Assembly (NCBI GenBank): GCA_019775845.1
Contig: JADQAV010000009.1
Coordinates: 434,001 to 498,000, forward strand
Reading direction: 5' to 3'
DNA from: Myrmaecium sp. VS I D KN 1
Taxonomy: Eukaryota; Ascomycota; Dothideomycetes; Valsariales; Valsariaceae
Length of the DNA stretch: 64,000 bases
Below are positions 1 to 16,400 of this stretch, piece by piece. The notes below the pieces were generated by a model. It had not been told where the DNA came from and searched no databases. It saw only the letters and a program-made list of their open reading frames with translations. Positions within the stretch are counted from its first letter, which is position 1. Each line of letters opens with the position of its first letter. The position numbers and the translations under genes are program-made.

Positions 1-404
1 GCAAGCCAGCTCTGGCGCGTGGTGTTCAGTATGGCTGTCGTGTCCAAACCGTAGTGGTCCCGATGGTCGCGGTCGAGCGAGGTCAGGGAGTAAATGTAAC
101 GCCGAATGGCCTCCGGATCGGTAAGCTCTTCGAAGTGGGAGTTAGTGAACGTGCCGCCTTTGCGGACTTTCGCCTCCCAGTGGCCGTCACGGAGACGAAG
201 CCAGACGCCGTGAAAGGCGAGGACATTGTTGCGGTCGTAGTAAGTGTCCTGCAACGTCTTGGTGCCCAGGTCGCGAAGGCTGCGGAACGGTGGAGTGCCA
301 GTCGACTTGGTGAGCGTGGGAACGGTGAGGCCGCGGAACTTGCGTTCCACTTCGAGCGTGCAGCGCTGCGTCGCCGCCGTCAGGAGTCGCGATGCTGCTT
401 TCAT
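1..404 (-). CDS. CYTH-domain protein, thiamine-triphosphatase-like (partial, runs off window start)
   Basis: The minus-strand frame opens at an ATG at 404-402 and stays open to the window edge, giving 134 residues of the N-terminal part. The peptide LEVERKFRG (residues 17-25) carries the ExExK signature (E18, E20, K22) that defines CYTH/triphosphate tunnel metalloenzymes. It is followed by TYYDRNNVLAFHGVWLRLRD and WEAKVRKGG, the alternating basic and acidic tunnel strands expected of thiamine triphosphatase. Known members hydrolyse thiamine triphosphate or inorganic triphosphate with Mg2+. The C-terminal half lies outside the window, so the substrate cannot be inferred from the whole tunnel. 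It starts 285 bp beyond the stop of the NMP kinase, on the same strand, and so belongs to the viperin neighbourhood. No intron is visible in this part. Other CYTH activities (adenylate cyclase class IV, polyphosphate enzymes) are less likely in a fungus. Confidence 0.85.
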   Translation of the reverse strand, partial: MKAASRLLTAATQRCTLEVERKFRGLTVPTLTKSTGTPPFRSLRDLGTKTLQDTYYDRNNVLAFHGVWLRLRDGHWEAKVRKGGTFTNSHFEELTDPEAIRRYIYSLTSLDRDHRDHYGLDTTAILNTTRQSWL

Positions 405-689
405 GGTGACAAGGCTGGCTGGTGTTGACTAGTTCGTGTCGGAGCGACGCTAATGGAAGAAACAGTATAAGTTGGTGGGTTCTTCGTGCCGGTGTTTACC
501 CGGGGTTGTTGGCATGTGAATGTTTCACAGGACTGCAGAAGTATCTCCTATGTGAACGGTCTGTGATAAACCTAGTGATGAATGGGAGTCACTTTCTTCC
601 AAACCAACCCGATTATTCTTTCTTAGAAACGGTGCTTAATCCGACTCCACCATCCCCAGTACTACCAGCCGATGCCACTCACGCCTATA

Positions 690-1511
690 TCACGAATTTT
701 GAATTACCTTCACCTCCCAAAGAACATCCACCAACTTTCCCCACGAAACCTCCGTCTCACCACTAGTATCAATCTGTAATCGCTATCAGCATCATGATCT
801 ACTTCATTAAATTCAAGGAGAGCAATTCCAGCTTACCTCTCTCAAAATCCCTTTCCTTCGATACCACTCCACAATTTCCCCATTCAGCCTCTCAAACTCA
901 CGATACCTCTTCTCAAACACCTCCTCTGTGTCATTTCTCCCGCGGATGCTCCGTGTCACAAGACGCTGCTTTGCGAGCTCACGGGGGCAGTTGAAGAACA
1001 GGACTAAGTCAGGGGATCCGATCTTTCGCCACGAGAGATAAAGTCAGTAACACAACGGATGAAAAAGGATACAGCAAGCAGCAGCAAGGGCAAGGGCACG
1101 GGTAAGCATATCTCACCATATCCTTCACCACCCCCACCTGATCCAGCCGTCTCGGAAAACCATCGAGAACCAGCACCTCCCCAGCACGACAAGGTATCTC
1201 CTCAATCTCCCTCCTCAATATCACCCCCAGCGCCTCAGCCGGTATCAACTCGCCCCTCCTCACGCAATCTACCACGCGCACATCAGGATAATTACGCTCC
1301 GCAGCGGTCAGCCGACGCAGCACGTCGCCGACGGAGAGGTGGTGGAAGCCGTACGTAGCCGCGAGGCGGGCGCACAGGGTGCCTTTTCCTGCGCCAGGGG
1401 CGCCTGGGTTGGGATAAGTAGGTATCTTGTTAGTTGGGTGTGCGGCGTCGGAGCGGGTATGTGCAGGTAGATATTGCACGTAGATTGCGTACCGATTACG
1501 AAGATGAGCAT
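690..1511 (-). CDS. Nucleoside-monophosphate kinase (adenylate/UMP-CMP kinase family), 191 aa
   Basis: Four exons read by splice signals: 1511-1493, 1403-1117, 1022-837 and 773-690. The introns (89, 94 and 63 nt) all keep frame. The ATG at 1511 gives MLIFVIG, joined across intron 1 to APGAGKGT, a complete P-loop GAPGAGKGT at residues 7-15. Next come the NMP-binding segment HLSVGDVLRR, the core motif DGFPRRLDQ, LVLFFNCPRELAKQRL and a short LID, RSIRGRNDTEEVFEKRYREF. These are hallmarks of the short-LID adenylate/UMP-CMP kinases, which transfer phosphate from ATP to an NMP. The length of 191 residues suits that family, and no targeting signal is evident. It is transcribed divergently from viperin with 390 bp between the start codons. 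The vertebrate counterpart arrangement is CMPK2 beside RSAD2, so supplying nucleotides to viperin is an attractive inference. Base specificity (CMP, UMP or AMP) cannot be read from sequence alone. The joined ends of introns 1 and 2 are supported by frame and motif continuity. Confidence 0.88.
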
Positions 1512-1901
1512 GATGCTGGATCTTGGGGTCGCGTGGGCGATGGTAGGCAGGGGAGGGAAGAGGAGATGGAGGGAGATAAGGTGAGTAAGTCACACAGGAG
1601 TGACGTTGGACGATTCAGGGGGTTGCTTGCTTCCGGGTACCCCGCCCGCTATGAGATTGATGAGGCTGAAGTTGCGAGAAGGGAGATAGAGAAGATGAAG
1701 GAGGAGATGGTTAAGTAGTGTGTCCTGCGTTTGCCTTTTGCTTATCACTTCGCTGTTCTCTTTCTCTGTCGACCAATTCACTGCCTCTTTCTCTCAGTGT
1801 GAGACATCTAAGCACACTCCGTGTCTGTGTCCGTTTGTCAATCCGGTTCCATCGTCACTTGTATACGTACCTCAGCTGCCAAGCTCATCAACAGCACTGT
1901 C
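1512..1901. promoter_or_regulatory. Shared divergent promoter of the NMP kinase and viperin
   Basis: 390 bp separate the kinase ATG (minus) from the viperin ATG (plus). No coding frame is supported here. The viperin-proximal half is pyrimidine-rich (CTTCTCTTTCTC-type tracts at about 1750-1800), a common feature upstream of fungal start codons. No clear TATA box was seen. A common intergenic region makes co-regulation possible. Confidence 0.6.
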
Positions 1902-2960
1902 ATGGCTCTCCTTGCCACCGTTGTTGTAGCCGCCGCAGTCCTACTCTTCTGCGTACGCACCTACATCTGCCGCTGTCGCAAAAACAAGACCAAGCGCAAC
2001 ACCACCACCACCACCACCACAGCCAGCACAACCACAACCAGTACCACCACCACTCCCACTAAATGCCCCATCTCCGTCAACTACCACTTCTCCCGCCGCT
2101 GCAACAAAACCTGCGGCTTCTGCTTCCACACCGCGACCACCTCTCACATCGAATCGCTCACCAACGCCAAGCAAGGCCTCCGCCTGCTCAAAGCCGCGGG
2201 CATGCGCAAGCTCAACTTCGCCGGCGGCGAGCCATTCCTACACCCCAAATTCCTCAGCCCGCTCCTCCGCTTCAGCAAGCAAGAGCTCGCACTCGAATCC
2301 ATCTCCATCGTCACCAACGGGTCTCTAGTAAAAGAATCCTTCCTTCGCCAGCACGCCGGGGACATCGACATCCTCGCCGTATCCTGCGACTCCTTCGACG
2401 AAGGGACGAACGTGCGGATCGGGCGGGGCACGGGGGAGAACGTGCGCACGCTGTATCGGATCCGGGAGTGGTGCGAGGCATGCGGGATCCGGTTCAAGAT
2501 CAACACGGTCGTGTGCCGGCTGAACGTGGGGGAGGACATGAACCTGCACCTCGCGGCCCTGCGACCCTTTCGGTGGAAATGCTTCCAAGTCCTCCTCGTC
2601 GAAGGGGAGAACGAGTCCGCATCGGCCGGGCGGCTGCGGGACGTGCGCGAGTGGCTGATCAGCGATGAGGAGTACACGGCTTTCATCCGGCGACATGAGA
2701 GCCATGCATTTTTGGTGCCGGAGCCGAATCGTTTGATGGCGAAGTCGTATTTGATCTTGGATGAGTACATGCGGTTTTTGGATCGGGAGGGGCGGGCGCC
2801 GTCGCGGTCGATTTTGGAGGTCGGGGTGGAGGAGGCGTTGGCGAGTGTGTATTGGGATGAGCAGGGTTTCCGGGACCGAGGGGGGTTGTATGAGTGGAGC
2901 CGGACAGCGAAGGAAAGTGGTGGTGGGTGTGGTGGGAAGCTGGATGGGCTTGACTGGTGA
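1902..2960 (+). CDS. RSAD2: Viperin-like radical SAM enzyme (ddhNTP synthase family), 352 aa
   Basis: A single-exon gene. The frame is open from a GTG at 1821, but the first ATG is at 1902, in good context (G at -3, G at +4), and gives 352 residues against 361 in human viperin. Residues 1-20 form a hydrophobic N-terminal helix, then come a Cys/basic patch and a Thr-rich linker (34-53). The radical SAM cluster motif is CNKTCGFC (C67, C71, C74), followed by FHTATT, NFAGGEPF (GGE 108-110), SCDSFDEGTNVRIGRG (161-176), FKINTVV (198-204), KCFQVLLVEGEN (227-238) and KSYLILDEYMRFLD (281-294). The chain ends in LDW, like human viperin, whose C-terminal Trp is needed for Fe-S delivery by the cytosolic Fe-S assembly machinery. 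Viperins dehydrate CTP or another NTP to the chain-terminating ddhNTP. All the segments I recall as conserved are intact, so an active enzyme is expected. The nucleotide preference is not determined. Confidence 0.96.
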   Translation: MALLATVVVAAAVLLFCVRTYICRCRKNKTKRNTTTTTTTASTTTTSTTTTPTKCPISVNYHFSRRCNKTCGFCFHTATTSHIESLTNAKQGLRLLKAAGMRKLNFAGGEPFLHPKFLSPLLRFSKQELALESISIVTNGSLVKESFLRQHAGDIDILAVSCDSFDEGTNVRIGRGTGENVRTLYRIREWCEACGIRFKINTVVCRLNVGEDMNLHLAALRPFRWKCFQVLLVEGENESASAGRLRDVREWLISDEEYTAFIRRHESHAFLVPEPNRLMAKSYLILDEYMRFLDREGRAPSRSILEVGVEEALASVYWDEQGFRDRGGLYEWSRTAKESGGGCGGKLDGLDW

Positions 2961-3095: not shown

Positions 3096-4810
3096 CTAAC
3101 CCAGAACAAACACCCGACTCACAGCCCCCTCCCCATCCCTCGCATACAACGCCATAAAATGCCGCTCATCCAACGCCAGCAAACCCGGCCAATGTGCCGG
3201 CGCAGGCGCAGTCACAAACGGGCCCTTCCACGTCCTCCCACCATCCGGGCTAACAACCACCTTCATATCGCCCCCATCAATTTCTGTCCCAAGTCCATCA
3301 ATCAGCTTTTATTCTGCTCCGCTAAAAAAGGTCAAACACATACCATTACCCCCGCTATCCTCGTTCGTCATGAAGCTCACGACTAGGCGGCCGCCGACGT
3401 TGCATACCTGCGGCGCGCCGGTCTTTTTTCCCGGCGACGGGATGTAGACGGGTGTGCGCTCGGGCTCCCAGGTGAAGCCGTCGTCGTGCGAGCGCGTGGC
3501 CCAGATGCCCCATCCGCTTTGTGGGGTGGGGTCTTCGAAGACGGCGCTGGAGTGGGAGGGTGAGGGAGCGTTAGTGGGTGAGGTTTGCGGTCTTTGATAT
3601 GGGTAGGGGAATGGATGAAGAAGCGGAAAAAGGAATTAAAGAAAGGGAGAAAAGCTGAAAAACAGAGAAGGGCAATCCAAAGCAGACAGAAACATGCAAG
3701 AAGCAAACGAAGAACAGCAAAAAGAAAAAAACAAAACTCACAAAACCTCCCCCTCCCCCATCCCCTCCGCCAACCCAACCATCCCCTCCCTCCTCCCCCA
3801 TCCCCCAGGCGACACCCGCACCATCTCCCCCCACGTCCTCCCCCCATCCCCACTCCACCTCATCACCACCCTCTGCTGCGCCCTCCCCCTCTCATCCGCA
3901 AAAAAACACTGCACTCTCCCATCCCCCGCGCGTCTCAAAACCGGTTCCCACAAGCCCTCAAACCCCGCCGGCGACGACGCGGGGCGCTCCGCCACCGTCG
4001 CGCGGTACCGCCACGTGCGGCCGCCGTCGGGGGAGTGGCAGAGGGTGATGCGGTAGTGTGTGTACCCTGTGCCAGAGGCGGCGCGGTCGTGGTTGCGGAA
4101 GGCGGCGAGGAGATGCGGGGATGGGTTGAGGTGCAGGAGGGTTGGGTTGTCGAGGTCGCTGGTGGGGAGGGGGCGTTGGGTGATGTGGCCGAGGCTATGC
4201 CAGGGGTGGTCGGGGGAGAGGGTGTGGGTGAGGGTGAGGATGTGCTCGTTTCCTTGCTGGGTGGTGTGGATGCTGAGGAGGGGGCCGTTGGGGAGGCGGA
4301 TGGCGCGAGGGTAGGTGCTGCTACCGCTGCTGTTGGGGTTGAGGGGGTTGGGGGGCCCGATGGGGTGGGGGATGAGGCTGGGTGGTGGTGGGTGGTGGTT
4401 AGTTGTGATAGGGGAGTTGAGGAGGAGGGCGAGGAGGATGAGGATGGTGATGTAGATGCCGGTTTGGCGATTGCGTCGTGAGGTGATGGTGAGTTTGGGG
4501 ATGGGTTCTGCTGGTGGGAGAGGTCAGTGTGCTTCACGTACCTTGTGTAGGTTGTGAATTCGCTGGACTCACGACTTGGTGTGCGATGGTCGGTTTTATG
4601 GAGTCGCGATACCGCAGCAGAGCCCGGATAGTCATGGTCTCGCTTGTCCGAGTCCCCTTCCTCCTTGGACAAAGCAGAGGCGAAGAAGTCCTTCAGCCGG
4701 CCCATATTCAGTATTGTAGATGGGTCAGTGGCTTCAAGAATCCGTTCGGAGTTTGATACGACGGTTCGTTGACGTTCACTTAAGCTGTCATTGGGGCTGA
4801 AAATGCCCAT
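3096..4810 (-). CDS. Membrane-anchored Asp-box/BNR (sialidase-like) protein, 464 aa
   Basis: Four exons: 4810-4573, 4507-3742, 3546-3344 and 3283-3096. The introns (65, 195 and 60 nt) start with GTGAGT, GTGAGT and GTATGT, and the frame is kept throughout. Intron 1 has a CTGAC branch site. The product has an 80-residue charged N-terminal tail, a basic stretch (RRNR) and one hydrophobic segment (GIYITILILLALLLN, about 96-110). A beta-propeller-like region follows with four Asp-boxes: SPDGGRTW, SGDGGRTW, SHDDGFTW and SPDGGRTW. Such boxes mark GH33-type sialidases, GH93 arabinanases and related BNR proteins, so the true substrate is open. The topology predicts a type II protein with the propeller on the luminal or outer side. 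The ATG at 4810 is the first in frame, and an internal ATG at residue 36 is an alternative. The acceptor of intron 1 could be 3 nt earlier. It is convergent with viperin, with 135 bp between the stops. Confidence 0.78.
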
Positions 4811-5693: not shown

Positions 5694-7040
5694 TCACGAC
5701 AAAACAGGAACAACCGTAACAGCAGCCCGAGGAGCCGCATCCGAAGCAGTCGCGGAAGCAACCGTGCCATTCGACACGACCTTGCCGAACACAAAGCCCG
5801 AAGGCGCAGCATATCCCTGGCTTTCCGAAGCGGCCAGGGTAGGCGCGGCGACAGCTTCGGTGACAATGGTGGTCACGGTGAGGTACTTGACGTTGGCCAG
5901 CTTCTCCTCGCCGGGGACTTGGGAGGCGGCGAGGGTGGGTGCGGCTGCGGCTTCGGTGACAGCGGAGGAACCGGCGCGGAACTTGAAGCCGAAAGGCTTG
6001 CCATTGGTGGGGACTTGAGAAGCGGCGAGGGACCGGGTAGCTGTGACGCCAGCAACAGTGGTAGTCGGAGTGCGAAGCTTGGCGTCGTGGTAGCGGGGCC
6101 AGCCGGTGGTGGAGGAGGAGGACGACTCGGCGATCCTGGTAGCGGGGGCCTCGGAGAAGACGGTGGGGACGGACTCGAAGATGCCGACGCTGCGGGTGAT
6201 GGTGGTGATGGTGGTCGTGCTGTACTGGTGGTGCCCGTGGTGGTGTCCGTGGTAGTGATGATGGTGCTTAGGCTCACGACGGAAGAGGGAGGCAGCATTG
6301 TGGGCGACCTTCACGACAACGGCACCAGCAGCAGGAGCACGGACGTCGGCGGGCTTCGCTGAAACCGAGGATCCAGGAGTGGAGCGGGTGCCAGTAACTC
6401 CAGCGACAGTCGTGGTCGGGGTCCGGAGCCTGGGGTCGTGGTATTTCGGCCAGGTGGTCGGGGTCGTCGGCTCGGAGGTGCCGGTGGTGCTGCGGGTCAT
6501 GACGGGCTTGGGGTTGTTGTAAAGGTGCTGGTGTTTAGAGGAGCCATGATGCCCAGGAGGGGTGCGGGTGCCAGTAACTCCAGCGACAGTGGTCGTGGGG
6601 GTGCGGAGCTTGGGGTCGTGGTATTTGGGCCAGGTGGTCGACTTTGAGGTGCTGGTGGAGCTAAGAGGCTCATCCTCACCCGGGAATCCAAAGGCGGTGA
6701 CGGTGGGGATCGACTCGTAGGCGTCGGTGGTGCTGGCGGTCACGCTGTACGAGCGGTGCTTATGATGCTTGTGGTGGCGAGGCTCACGGCGGACAAGGGA
6801 GGCCTGGCGGGGTTCGCCGGTGGGCCAGTCGGTTGGGAAGTCGACGTAGACGGTGGTGGTGTAGGTTGCGGTGGTGTAGGTTGTGGTGGTGTTGATTGTG
6901 GGGGTGTTGGTTGTGGTGCGCTGCTGGGTAACGGGACGCTTGTGATGGCCGTGACGGCCGGGACGGCCGTAGTGGTCATGGTGGTGGCCGGCGAGGGCAC
7001 TGCCGGCCAGCAGACCGAGGGCAGCGATGATGAAGCGCAT
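5694..7040 (-). CDS. Secreted His/Thr-rich modular repeat protein, 448 aa (471 aa if a 3' exon is used)
   Basis: The ATG at 7040 opens MRFIIAALGLLAGSALA, a clear signal peptide, and no other membrane segment follows. The mature chain has three copies of a WPxYHDxKLRTPTTTV-AGVTxTR block. Two larger modules each start with a dibasic RREP(R/K) followed by a His cluster (HHKHHKH; HHHHYHGHHHGHH), then ES(I/V)PTV and a WP block. The C-terminal third repeats APTLAAS. KR and RR sites are potential Kex2 cleavage points. I know no family for it; a wall-associated, metal-binding or Kex2-processed secreted repeat protein would fit. The frame stops at 5694, but a strong GTGAGT donor sits at the stop (exon end 5698). 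With an acceptor at 5640 it would add 24 residues ending in AEMLGS, stop at 5567. That intron (58 nt) lacks a clear branch site, so I give the unspliced end. A TATA-like box lies 95 bp upstream. Confidence 0.78.
   Translation of the reverse strand: MRFIIAALGLLAGSALAGHHHDHYGRPGRHGHHKRPVTQQRTTTNTPTINTTTTYTTATYTTTVYVDFPTDWPTGEPRQASLVRREPRHHKHHKHRSYSVTASTTDAYESIPTVTAFGFPGEDEPLSSTSTSKSTTWPKYHDPKLRTPTTTVAGVTGTRTPPGHHGSSKHQHLYNNPKPVMTRSTTGTSEPTTPTTWPKYHDPRLRTPTTTVAGVTGTRSTPGSSVSAKPADVRAPAAGAVVVKVAHNAASLFRREPKHHHHYHGHHHGHHQYSTTTITTITRSVGIFESVPTVFSEAPATRIAESSSSSTTGWPRYHDAKLRTPTTTVAGVTATRSLAASQVPTNGKPFGFKFRAGSSAVTEAAAAPTLAASQVPGEEKLANVKYLTVTTIVTEAVAAPTLAASESQGYAAPSGFVFGKVVSNGTVASATASDAAPRAAVTVVPVLS
6034..6638 (-). 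repeat. Internal coding repeats of the secreted protein (three WPxYHD blocks)
   Basis: Three near-identical blocks of about 72 nt lie at about 6565-6638, 6385-6456 and 6034-6106. The first two are about 180 bp apart and the third is about 350 bp further on. They encode WP(K/R)YHD(P/A)(K/R)LRTP plus the TTTVAGVT segment. High nucleotide as well as protein identity points to recent duplication or gene-conversion-like homogenisation. Confidence 0.85.
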
Positions 7041-7134
7041 TCTGTTGATGAGTGATGAGTGGTGGAAGTGGTTGGTGTTGGCGTCGGTAGGTGGTGGAAG
7101 GTAAGGATCTCACACAAGTAGGAGAGAGAGGGTG

Positions 7135-13436: not shown

Positions 13437-16400
13437 CTACACATCCTCCATCTCCACATCCGAGTACCCATCACTCTCATCATCCACGCTTCCACCCTCC
13501 GACACCTCAACCGCCGCCCCTCCAGCCAAAGCAGGCCGCGATGCATCTATTCCTTCGCCCGCAACGGCACGCTCGGTGGAGTGAAAGAACGCATGATCCG
13601 CCCGGAGCGCAAGGCGCTGACAGAGGAAGCCCATCGGCGTATGCGCAAACTCCTGATCTTTCCTTCTTAAGGCCAGCCACTCCTGCAAAAAGCTTAGAGG
13701 CGTCTGGACGAAAGGCTGCTCTTGGGTGCCAACATCAGAGTCACAAGACGCGGCGTCGTGATGGAGATATGCCGTGACCTCCGGGAGCTCATCGGCGTGG
13801 AAGTACAGTCGGCCGGCGAAGAGACCGAGTTCCATGCCCAGCCATGCCGGTATCGCGAAGTCGTCCGGCAGAGCGGGGAGGGCGTAGTATTTAAGGCGGT
13901 TGAAGTGGAGCATCGCCTTGGTCACCGGTGGTGCGTAGAGAATGAGGTGCGTCTTTGCTTGCTTTCCCTGCCGTCGGAGGATCGGGATCACCGCCTCGGC
14001 CTCTTCAGGGATGATGATGAGCGCCGTCCCGTCGCGTGGGCCAAACAGGATCCATGACACCGGTCGCTTTACGTGAGAAAGTTAGCCCCGTTACCTTTCC
14101 AAAAGCTTTCGGGATGAATGAGAGAACTAAACATACCAAAAAGTTATCCTGCGCCCGACCCTTCGTGACCACCGTTCGACTCATCTCCGTCGAGATATAA
14201 AGACGAGACTTGGCAGCCGCTGGATTCGATTCGTACTTCCGACCCGGTCCCGTCCGCGCGATGGCCTCGAACGCATGTTCGAATCCCCATTCGCTCCGGA
14301 GCTCCCCCGTCTCCAAAAATCGCTTGATCGCCTTGCTCAGTCCCGGGAACACCAAAGCCTTATACCGCACCGGCCGTTGTACCTCCCTCGTCTGCTCGAC
14401 CTCAAACGCCACCTCCCTTTCCTGCTCGACCTGTTCGAACGCGGAACCGAAGCGGACCTGACCGATCCGAGACGTCCGCTGTCGATCGCGGAGTTCCGAG
14501 GCTAATGCACGCAAGCTGGGGTGGGAGACATGCCCGACCATCTCCGGGCAATCAGAGGCGGGTGTGTAGAGCTGTTCAAGCGTCTGCTCCTCAGGACGAC
14601 GAAGCACGCGCAAGAACGCCTCGCGCTGCCGCCGATCGGTCAGAAACTTGCGATGCTTCCACGCCGCATCCATTCGGCGGCAGAAGTCCGTTCCTTGGGC
14701 GAAGTATAGTTGTTGCAGCTGTTCGTTCGCCTTCACGGTCTGCCTGATGAGCCAAACGAGGACATCGAACGAATCGGGCCACTCCCCACTGCGCTTGCCG
14801 CGCAGATCCATAATGCTCTGATGGACTTCCGGACCGGCGAGGAAGGTGACGCTCTGGGTCGTCCCAAGCTGTCGTAGTCGCATGGCCGCTTGCACGGTAT
14901 GATCTTTCGTCTGGCCGAGGCCTAACGTCAAGGCGCCGCGGGCGGCTACCGGAAGTCGAAGATCGGTGCCTCTGGTATGCGCCTCGTCAAGATAGACGAG
15001 ACAGCCTTCGAGGTTTTCGGCATAGGGCGAGGCCTGCAGCGGCACCGTCTTATTATTCCGATCCAGGATCCACGGCTTATGCGCCGAGTCAAAGTAGACT
15101 GCGCCGGCCGCTTCATGGTCAACCTCTAGCCACGCCTTCGCAACGCTTTGGTTGTCCATCTCGAGGATATGCGCGCCCACGTCAATCAAAATCCGGATTC
15201 CTCGAGCATGTATACCTTCCAGAAGCCTCCGTTCCGACAGGTGACGGCCTTTCGCATCGGCAGCGAGCATGTACGCGCGGTTCCGGCGGAGCAAAAGGTG
15301 TGTTAGGACCAAGGCGCTGGTATGTGCGAGTCCAGGAAGGTCTGCCTGGCGAATGTTCAATGGCAGCATTCTCCGGTTATCATTCGTTCCGCTGAAGCCG
15401 GTCGTCAAAGGTCGCGGTTCCTCACTCAGCATCGGGATGTCCCAGCCGGACACTTGAAGCTTGACGGAGAACTGCTTGGCATGGGCCGGGAAGGCGAAGC
15501 TGTTAAGGTAATAATCGATGACAGGAGTCGCGTATCGCAGATGCTTGTGGATCTCCGCCAATTGGCCATCGTCATCAACGTTGATAGCATGCCAGTCCCG
15601 CAGCGCCCCGGGTAACGAGGAGCTATGGGTCCATCGATCGTATACGTTTGATGGATCGTCCGCACTTAACACGCGCTGCAGACCTTGGCGAATCTGATCG
15701 TGACTCAGACCGGTATAGTAAAACGCGAGACATGTGAGCGTGATAGCCACATCAGGATGGCCCCACTCAGCCTGCTCGGACGGGACACCTTTCGCGCTGA
15801 ACGGGACGGCGATCGGATCACGGGCGGGATGGAGCCCGTACTGAAGATTCCACCGCTTCTTCAAGCACTGTTTCAGAATGTCATGTGCAAGGAGCCCTCG
15901 TAGCAGCAGTAGGTTTGTCCTGGACTTTTGGTCCTCGGCCTCCTCGACCTCTAAAGCTCGGCAAGGGACCTTCTCGGAAACAAAAGCCTGTATCGCGTCG
16001 CGTTTGAGAGAACAGAATCCCGGGGAGAGTATGTTAGCACTCCCCATGCAAATATCGGCCGTGAGCCGCGCGGTCAGAGCATCTTCTACGTCGTCACGAA
16101 GCAGGTGGATGACTGGAAACCCCCCTGCCCTTGGGACTACTTCGATGCTTCCTGGGAACTCTCTTTGGAGATCCGGGAGATGCCATTCGACGAGCTTCAA
16201 CAGGGCCTGAACCGTCTCCCAACGATAGGGTCGACCGTCGAAAGACGTCAGGGCGCCACTTGGATAGACCAGCTGCGTCTTGACCGCCAGCGTGACGTCG
16301 CACTCGTCGAGAACATCTCTGCAAACGCTGTTCAACCAAGCCTGAGCCTCGATCATGGCAGTCGCCTCGGGGATTTGCTCATCCGAAAGGCGCTGTAGTC

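Follow-up and report, generated by a model that had tools for sequence, protein, structure and literature searches.

The window analysed here, a stretch of 64,000 nucleotides (G000:C66:434001-498000), belongs to a genome of 25,660,682 bases in 66 contigs, which we take to be fungal from its closest viperin match, its introns and the neighbouring genes. Near its left end, a gene for viperin, the RSAD2 homologue (1902..2960, + strand), and a gene for an ADK-family kinase resembling UMP-CMP kinases (691..1511, - strand) are transcribed divergently, and 390 bp (1512..1901) separate the two start codons. A CYTH/thiamine-triphosphatase-like gene (1..404, continuing 250 bp to the left of the window) lies 286 bp behind the kinase gene, in tandem with it on the - strand. 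On its other side viperin is met tail to tail by a sialidase-like BNR gene on the - strand (3096..4523, limits approximate), which is apparently split by introns. The preliminary description of this DNA had named viperin, a divergent NMP kinase 390 bp away and, following the kinase, a gene of the CYTH/thiamine-triphosphatase type; family models and matches to solved structures confirm the three identities, and both the spacing and the gene order are as it gave them. The opposite strands of viperin and kinase, the tandem of kinase and CYTH and the sialidase-like neighbour are additions to that description. The 390 bp possibly serve as a shared two-way promoter. With gaps of 286, 390 and about 135 bp the locus is a dense stretch, and closeness alone proves little, because the kinase gene is apparently not even the nearest neighbour of viperin: the sialidase-like gene seems to lie 135 bp away.

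The viperin gene is a single open frame without introns and encodes 352 amino acids. The protein scores 235.5 bits against NF038283, above the cut-off of 180, and 373.5 bits against TIGR04278, under the cut-off of 450; TIGR04278 matched only this gene in the genome. Among solved structures the best match is 6b4c (E 2.7e-127, aligned residues 54-338), a fungal viperin and the same enzyme, likened here by protein alone. Since 6B4C is tabulated in a row together with Mus musculus and Trichoderma virens in PMC8124187, we infer that it is the Trichoderma virens viperin. The CxxxCxxC radical SAM motif is present, and its cysteines (C67, C71, and C74) are invariant in an alignment of the window viperin with six prokaryotic viperins. 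The N-terminus is hydrophobic and leads into a Thr-rich linker; at the other end the sequence closes with LDW, which provides the C-terminal Trp within a tripeptide for delivery by the CIA machinery. The C-terminal signal for cytosolic Fe-S delivery is given as [LIM]-[DES]-[WF], and the terminal Trp of viperin is described as critical for maturation (excerpt of PMC10623007). As the LDW tail fits this signal, we propose that the CIA machinery supplies the Fe-S cluster of this viperin. Judged by its sequence, the protein looks like an intact, working enzyme, to which ddhNTP synthesis and an antiviral role may be ascribed. Searches of viral_contigs with viperin and with the kinase, each as a single-protein query, returned no relatives of either.

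The kinase gene consists of four exons (1511-1493, 1404-1117, 1022-837, and 773-691 on the - strand, the end at 691 being worked out from exon lengths) that encode 191 amino acids, and its three introns all have GT..AG ends. We rejected the idea of a pseudogene, since the reading frame continues uninterrupted through all four exons and the introns have GT-AG ends; this is no proof of activity. Against PF00406 (ADK) the protein scores 97.2 bits (cut-off 26.8), and it carries the P-loop and the DG(F/Y)PR motif. The score against PF02223 (Thymidylate_kin) is 21.9 bits, below the cut-off of 27. An orthologue of CMPK2 was likewise rejected, because the family is the wrong one, ADK and not thymidylate kinase. 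The best NCBIfam model is TIGR01359 (UMP-CMP kinase) with 116.1 bits, and because this is under the family cut-off of 207.6 we call the enzyme UMP-CMP-kinase-like only. Its best solved match is the yeast uridylate kinase Ura6 (1uky; 103.5 bits, E 9.2e-29), followed by human-type UMP-CMP kinase (97.6 bits) and adenylate kinase 1 (95.8 bits).

At least four ADK-family loci are present in the genome (7 exon matches, these counts being lower bounds). The window kinase is the fourth, beside a Ura6-like protein on contig C5, to which it is 33% identical, and two long-lid proteins on C37 and C31. In an alignment of seven sequences it retains GAPGAGKG, GDxLR, DGFPR, the Ura6-like LFFxCP and KR after the lid; where the other six carry the lid Asp pair (DD), it has GR-ND. 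The branch of the kinase in the corresponding seven-row tree is very long (4.3) and its placement ambiguous, so that we use the term Ura6-like on the strength of best matches and of motifs and not of the tree. Yeast Ura6 and human CMPK1 have the P-loop, DGFPR, and LFFxC motifs in common with the window kinase, but the latter is without one lid Asp and its family score is below the cut-off. It is thus an additional, fast-evolving and possibly active member of the ADK family. Score and motifs bring it nearest to Ura6, and adenylate kinase 1 is not far behind. Considering the long branch, the ambiguous place in the tree, the missing lid Asp, and the score below the UMP-CMP cut-off, it may also have another substrate or little activity.

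The CYTH gene is complete (G000:C66:433751-434404, ATG at window position 404; the 250 bp beyond the left edge are its 3' end) and encodes 218 amino acids. The protein scores 34.1 bits against PF01928 (cut-off 23.2) and contains the ExExK motif as EVERK at residues 18-22. Five solved structures match it at E ≤ 1, every one of them a thiamine triphosphatase. In the three alignments shown, W68 aligns with the Trp in HWLRQRE of thiamine triphosphatases, a residue that we take to bind thiamine and to mark thiamine specificity. The thiamine triphosphatases 5a65, 2jmu, and 3bhd thus share family, ExExK and aligned Trp with the window protein, although the overall match is weak (best E 1.9e-6). A protein search of the genome found only the gene itself; the single-copy statement belongs to this search, as the Pfam CYTH model missed even the window gene and cannot be used to count CYTH genes. 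The enzyme looks like an ordinary thiamine triphosphatase, and its gene is probably a bystander at the viperin locus.

Probably a bystander, too, is the sialidase-like gene. Its frame 3741-4523 scores 31.0 bits against BNR_2, just under the cut-off of 31.4, and is part of the only gene in the genome matched by this model. The frames 3309-3635 and 3099-3308 match no Pfam family and were assigned to the gene by eye on account of the Asp-box-like SHDDGFTW and SPDGGRTW. If the last exon is read correctly, its stop codon at 3096 and the stop codon of viperin are 135 bp apart. Further left lie genes for a sugar transporter and an FAD-binding protein, together with a portion of a beta-galactosidase of glycoside hydrolase family 2. 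The beta-galactosidase frame (L009:6735-7838) starts inside the TIM-barrel domain, matching positions 173-301 of a profile of 302, and its N-terminal half was not found in the neighbouring frames; introns may interrupt this gene, or it may be broken. Elsewhere in the window, a long frame at 5697-7109 combines a signal-peptide-like stretch with His/Thr-rich low-complexity sequence and has no Pfam match, and a large frame at 14008-15999 contains DUF3645 (60.5 bits).

A tblastn search of 72,556 plasmid records (PLSDB) with the window viperin gave 16 records, and 14 of these loci were inspected (H15 and H16 were left out). Viperin is the annotation at 13 of the 14 and a moaA/nifB/pqqE protein that at H2. 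In six (H1, H2, H3, H5, H7, and H10) the first gene annotated upstream encodes a deoxynucleoside or thymidylate kinase, and alongside the other eight (H4, H6, H8, H9, and H11-H14) no nucleotide kinase is annotated in the PLSDB gene table, which is incomplete. A scan of genome_contigs yielded 10 loci, and eight of the nine whose genomes were searched passed the viperin cut-off. Together with seven of the 14 plasmid loci (L024-L030) these 10 form a set of 17 (L033 is the H2 plasmid). This set is small, and since the query of genome_contigs was led by a Nostoc sequence, it is weighted towards cyanobacteria. By phmmer (E ≤ 1, frames of at least 80 amino acids), thymidylate-kinase/dNK-like relatives were detected in 7 of the 17 loci, while the window kinase, the Ura6-like protein of the same genome and the CYTH protein each had no relative in any of them. 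Two free kinases scanned with Pfam belong to PF02223/PF01712. In one of the seven, a Myxococcales MAG (L037:4836-6494), viperin (PF04055) and a following thymidylate-kinase-like domain (PF02223) are fused in one frame, and both families were confirmed. In three Pseudoalteromonas plasmids (L027, L056, and L057) a DUF4145 gene directly follows viperin, and two of them also have a kinase upstream.

In vertebrates RSAD2 adjoins CMPK2, which is thymidylate-kinase-like. The window shares with this pair a nucleotide kinase gene alongside viperin, but its kinase is of the ADK/UMP-CMP family and, not being of the thymidylate-kinase type, is at best analogous to CMPK2. The bacterial viperin operons of Nostoc, Sphaerospermopsis, Anabaena and the Pseudoalteromonas plasmids likewise have a kinase gene next to viperin; there, however, the kinase is of another family and lies on the same strand as viperin, whereas the window kinase is divergent. 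The earlier suggestion that the fungus has the same pairing as vertebrates and prokaryotes can thus be kept for the adjacency of viperin and a nucleotide kinase, seen also in 6 of 14 plasmids, and not for the kinase family. According to the excerpt of PMC11249213, the pairing has a precedent in bacteria, where 15% of viperin genes adjoin a CMPK2-like kinase gene, and a functional one in animals. Since CMPK2 is described as phosphorylating CDP into CTP (excerpt of PMC11218377), an NMP kinase would perform another step. As to the notion that the kinase feeds NTP synthesis, a Ura6-type enzyme makes NDP from NMP and does not yield CTP by itself. Fungal viperin is mentioned without gene neighbours in the excerpts of PMC10732462 and PMC5850085, and in PMC10089162, which names both viperin and mycovirus, viperin occurs just in a reference. 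No paper on gene order around fungal viperin was recognised in the open literature, which leaves most subscription papers outside the scope.

How, then, should the locus be read? We put forward, tentatively and at slightly under an even chance, that viperin and the divergent kinase form a functionally coupled pair from which the CYTH gene stands apart. Viperin is intact and the sole match of its kind in the genome, the kinase is additional to the loci on C5, C37, and C31, and it keeps GAPGAGKG, GDxLR, DGFPR, and LFFxCP as in Ura6, its best match. The short distance between the start codons, the kinases beside plasmid viperins and the L037 fusion also argue for the pair. About equally likely, and by itself similarly short of an even chance, is that these genes are chance neighbours in a compact genome, with viperin acting alone, the kinase an unrelated diverged paralogue, and the CYTH and sialidase-like genes housekeeping or unrelated. 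The tight packing, two neighbours without an evident link to viperin and the eight plasmid viperins without an annotated kinase are in line with chance; against the pair also speak the single genome from which it comes, the lack of a relative of its kinase in all 17 prokaryotic loci, the apparently nearer sialidase-like gene, the strong divergence of the kinase, and the different step described for CMPK2. On the other side, kinase partners of viperin recur elsewhere, both in bacterial genes (excerpt of PMC11249213) and in the L037 fusion, and one of four ADK-family loci would come to lie immediately beside viperin by chance in about 0.1% of cases if 8,000-10,000 genes are assumed. The estimate is post hoc: although the hypothesis had a precedent, this neighbour was picked once the locus had been seen, and a different one would have drawn attention as well.

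The preliminary description went further and considered a module of three genes, in which the kinase would feed NTP synthesis, viperin would make the ddhNTP and the CYTH enzyme might act on triphosphates; in such a module the CYTH enzyme would hydrolyse triphosphates, for example by removing ddhNTP. CYTH enzymes do act on triphosphates, and the kinase and CYTH genes stand in tandem on one strand, but the exclusive matches to thiamine triphosphatases, the ExExK motif with the aligned Trp, the single match in the genome and the lack of CYTH relatives in the 17 prokaryotic viperin loci make the module improbable, and we do not retain the CYTH gene as its third member. Still more improbable, to the point that we give it hardly any weight, is that viperin has its working partner in the sialidase-like gene and not in the kinase. 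It is apparently the nearest neighbour and holds the sole BNR_2 match in the genome; its tail-to-tail layout, however, leaves no promoter in common with viperin, and in the open literature searched no paper names viperin, fungi and sialidase together.

For the coupled pair of viperin and kinase we propose the following mechanism. The cytosolic CIA machinery, recognising the LDW tail, would supply viperin with its Fe-S cluster, and viperin would then act on a pyrimidine triphosphate, either CTP or UTP, to give a ddh chain-terminating nucleotide; eukaryotic viperins yield derivatives of CTP or UTP (excerpt of PMC11249213). The kinase, presumably co-expressed, would raise pyrimidine NMP to NDP, from which a general NDP kinase would then make NTP. 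Alternatively, it could rephosphorylate ddhNMP. Either the substrate or the product of viperin would thereby be topped up on demand, and the CYTH enzyme would be a separate, ordinary thiamine triphosphatase.

With a little more reserve than for the coupling itself, we suggest that fungi independently recruited a fast-evolving duplicate of a Ura6-type UMP-CMP kinase as the dedicated partner of viperin, under a shared two-way promoter. If true, this would be another origin of the viperin-kinase alliance, with a kinase family that differs from CMPK2 and from the bacterial operons. A functional pairing would thus represent the independent recruitment of another kinase family, and should it prove conserved across fungi, kinases of different families would have teamed up with viperin more than once. 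Such repeated recruitment would argue that the local supply of nucleotides, or the rephosphorylation of ddh-nucleotides, limits viperin defence, and the pair would offer a tractable fungal system in which to ask whether viperin acts on mycoviruses.
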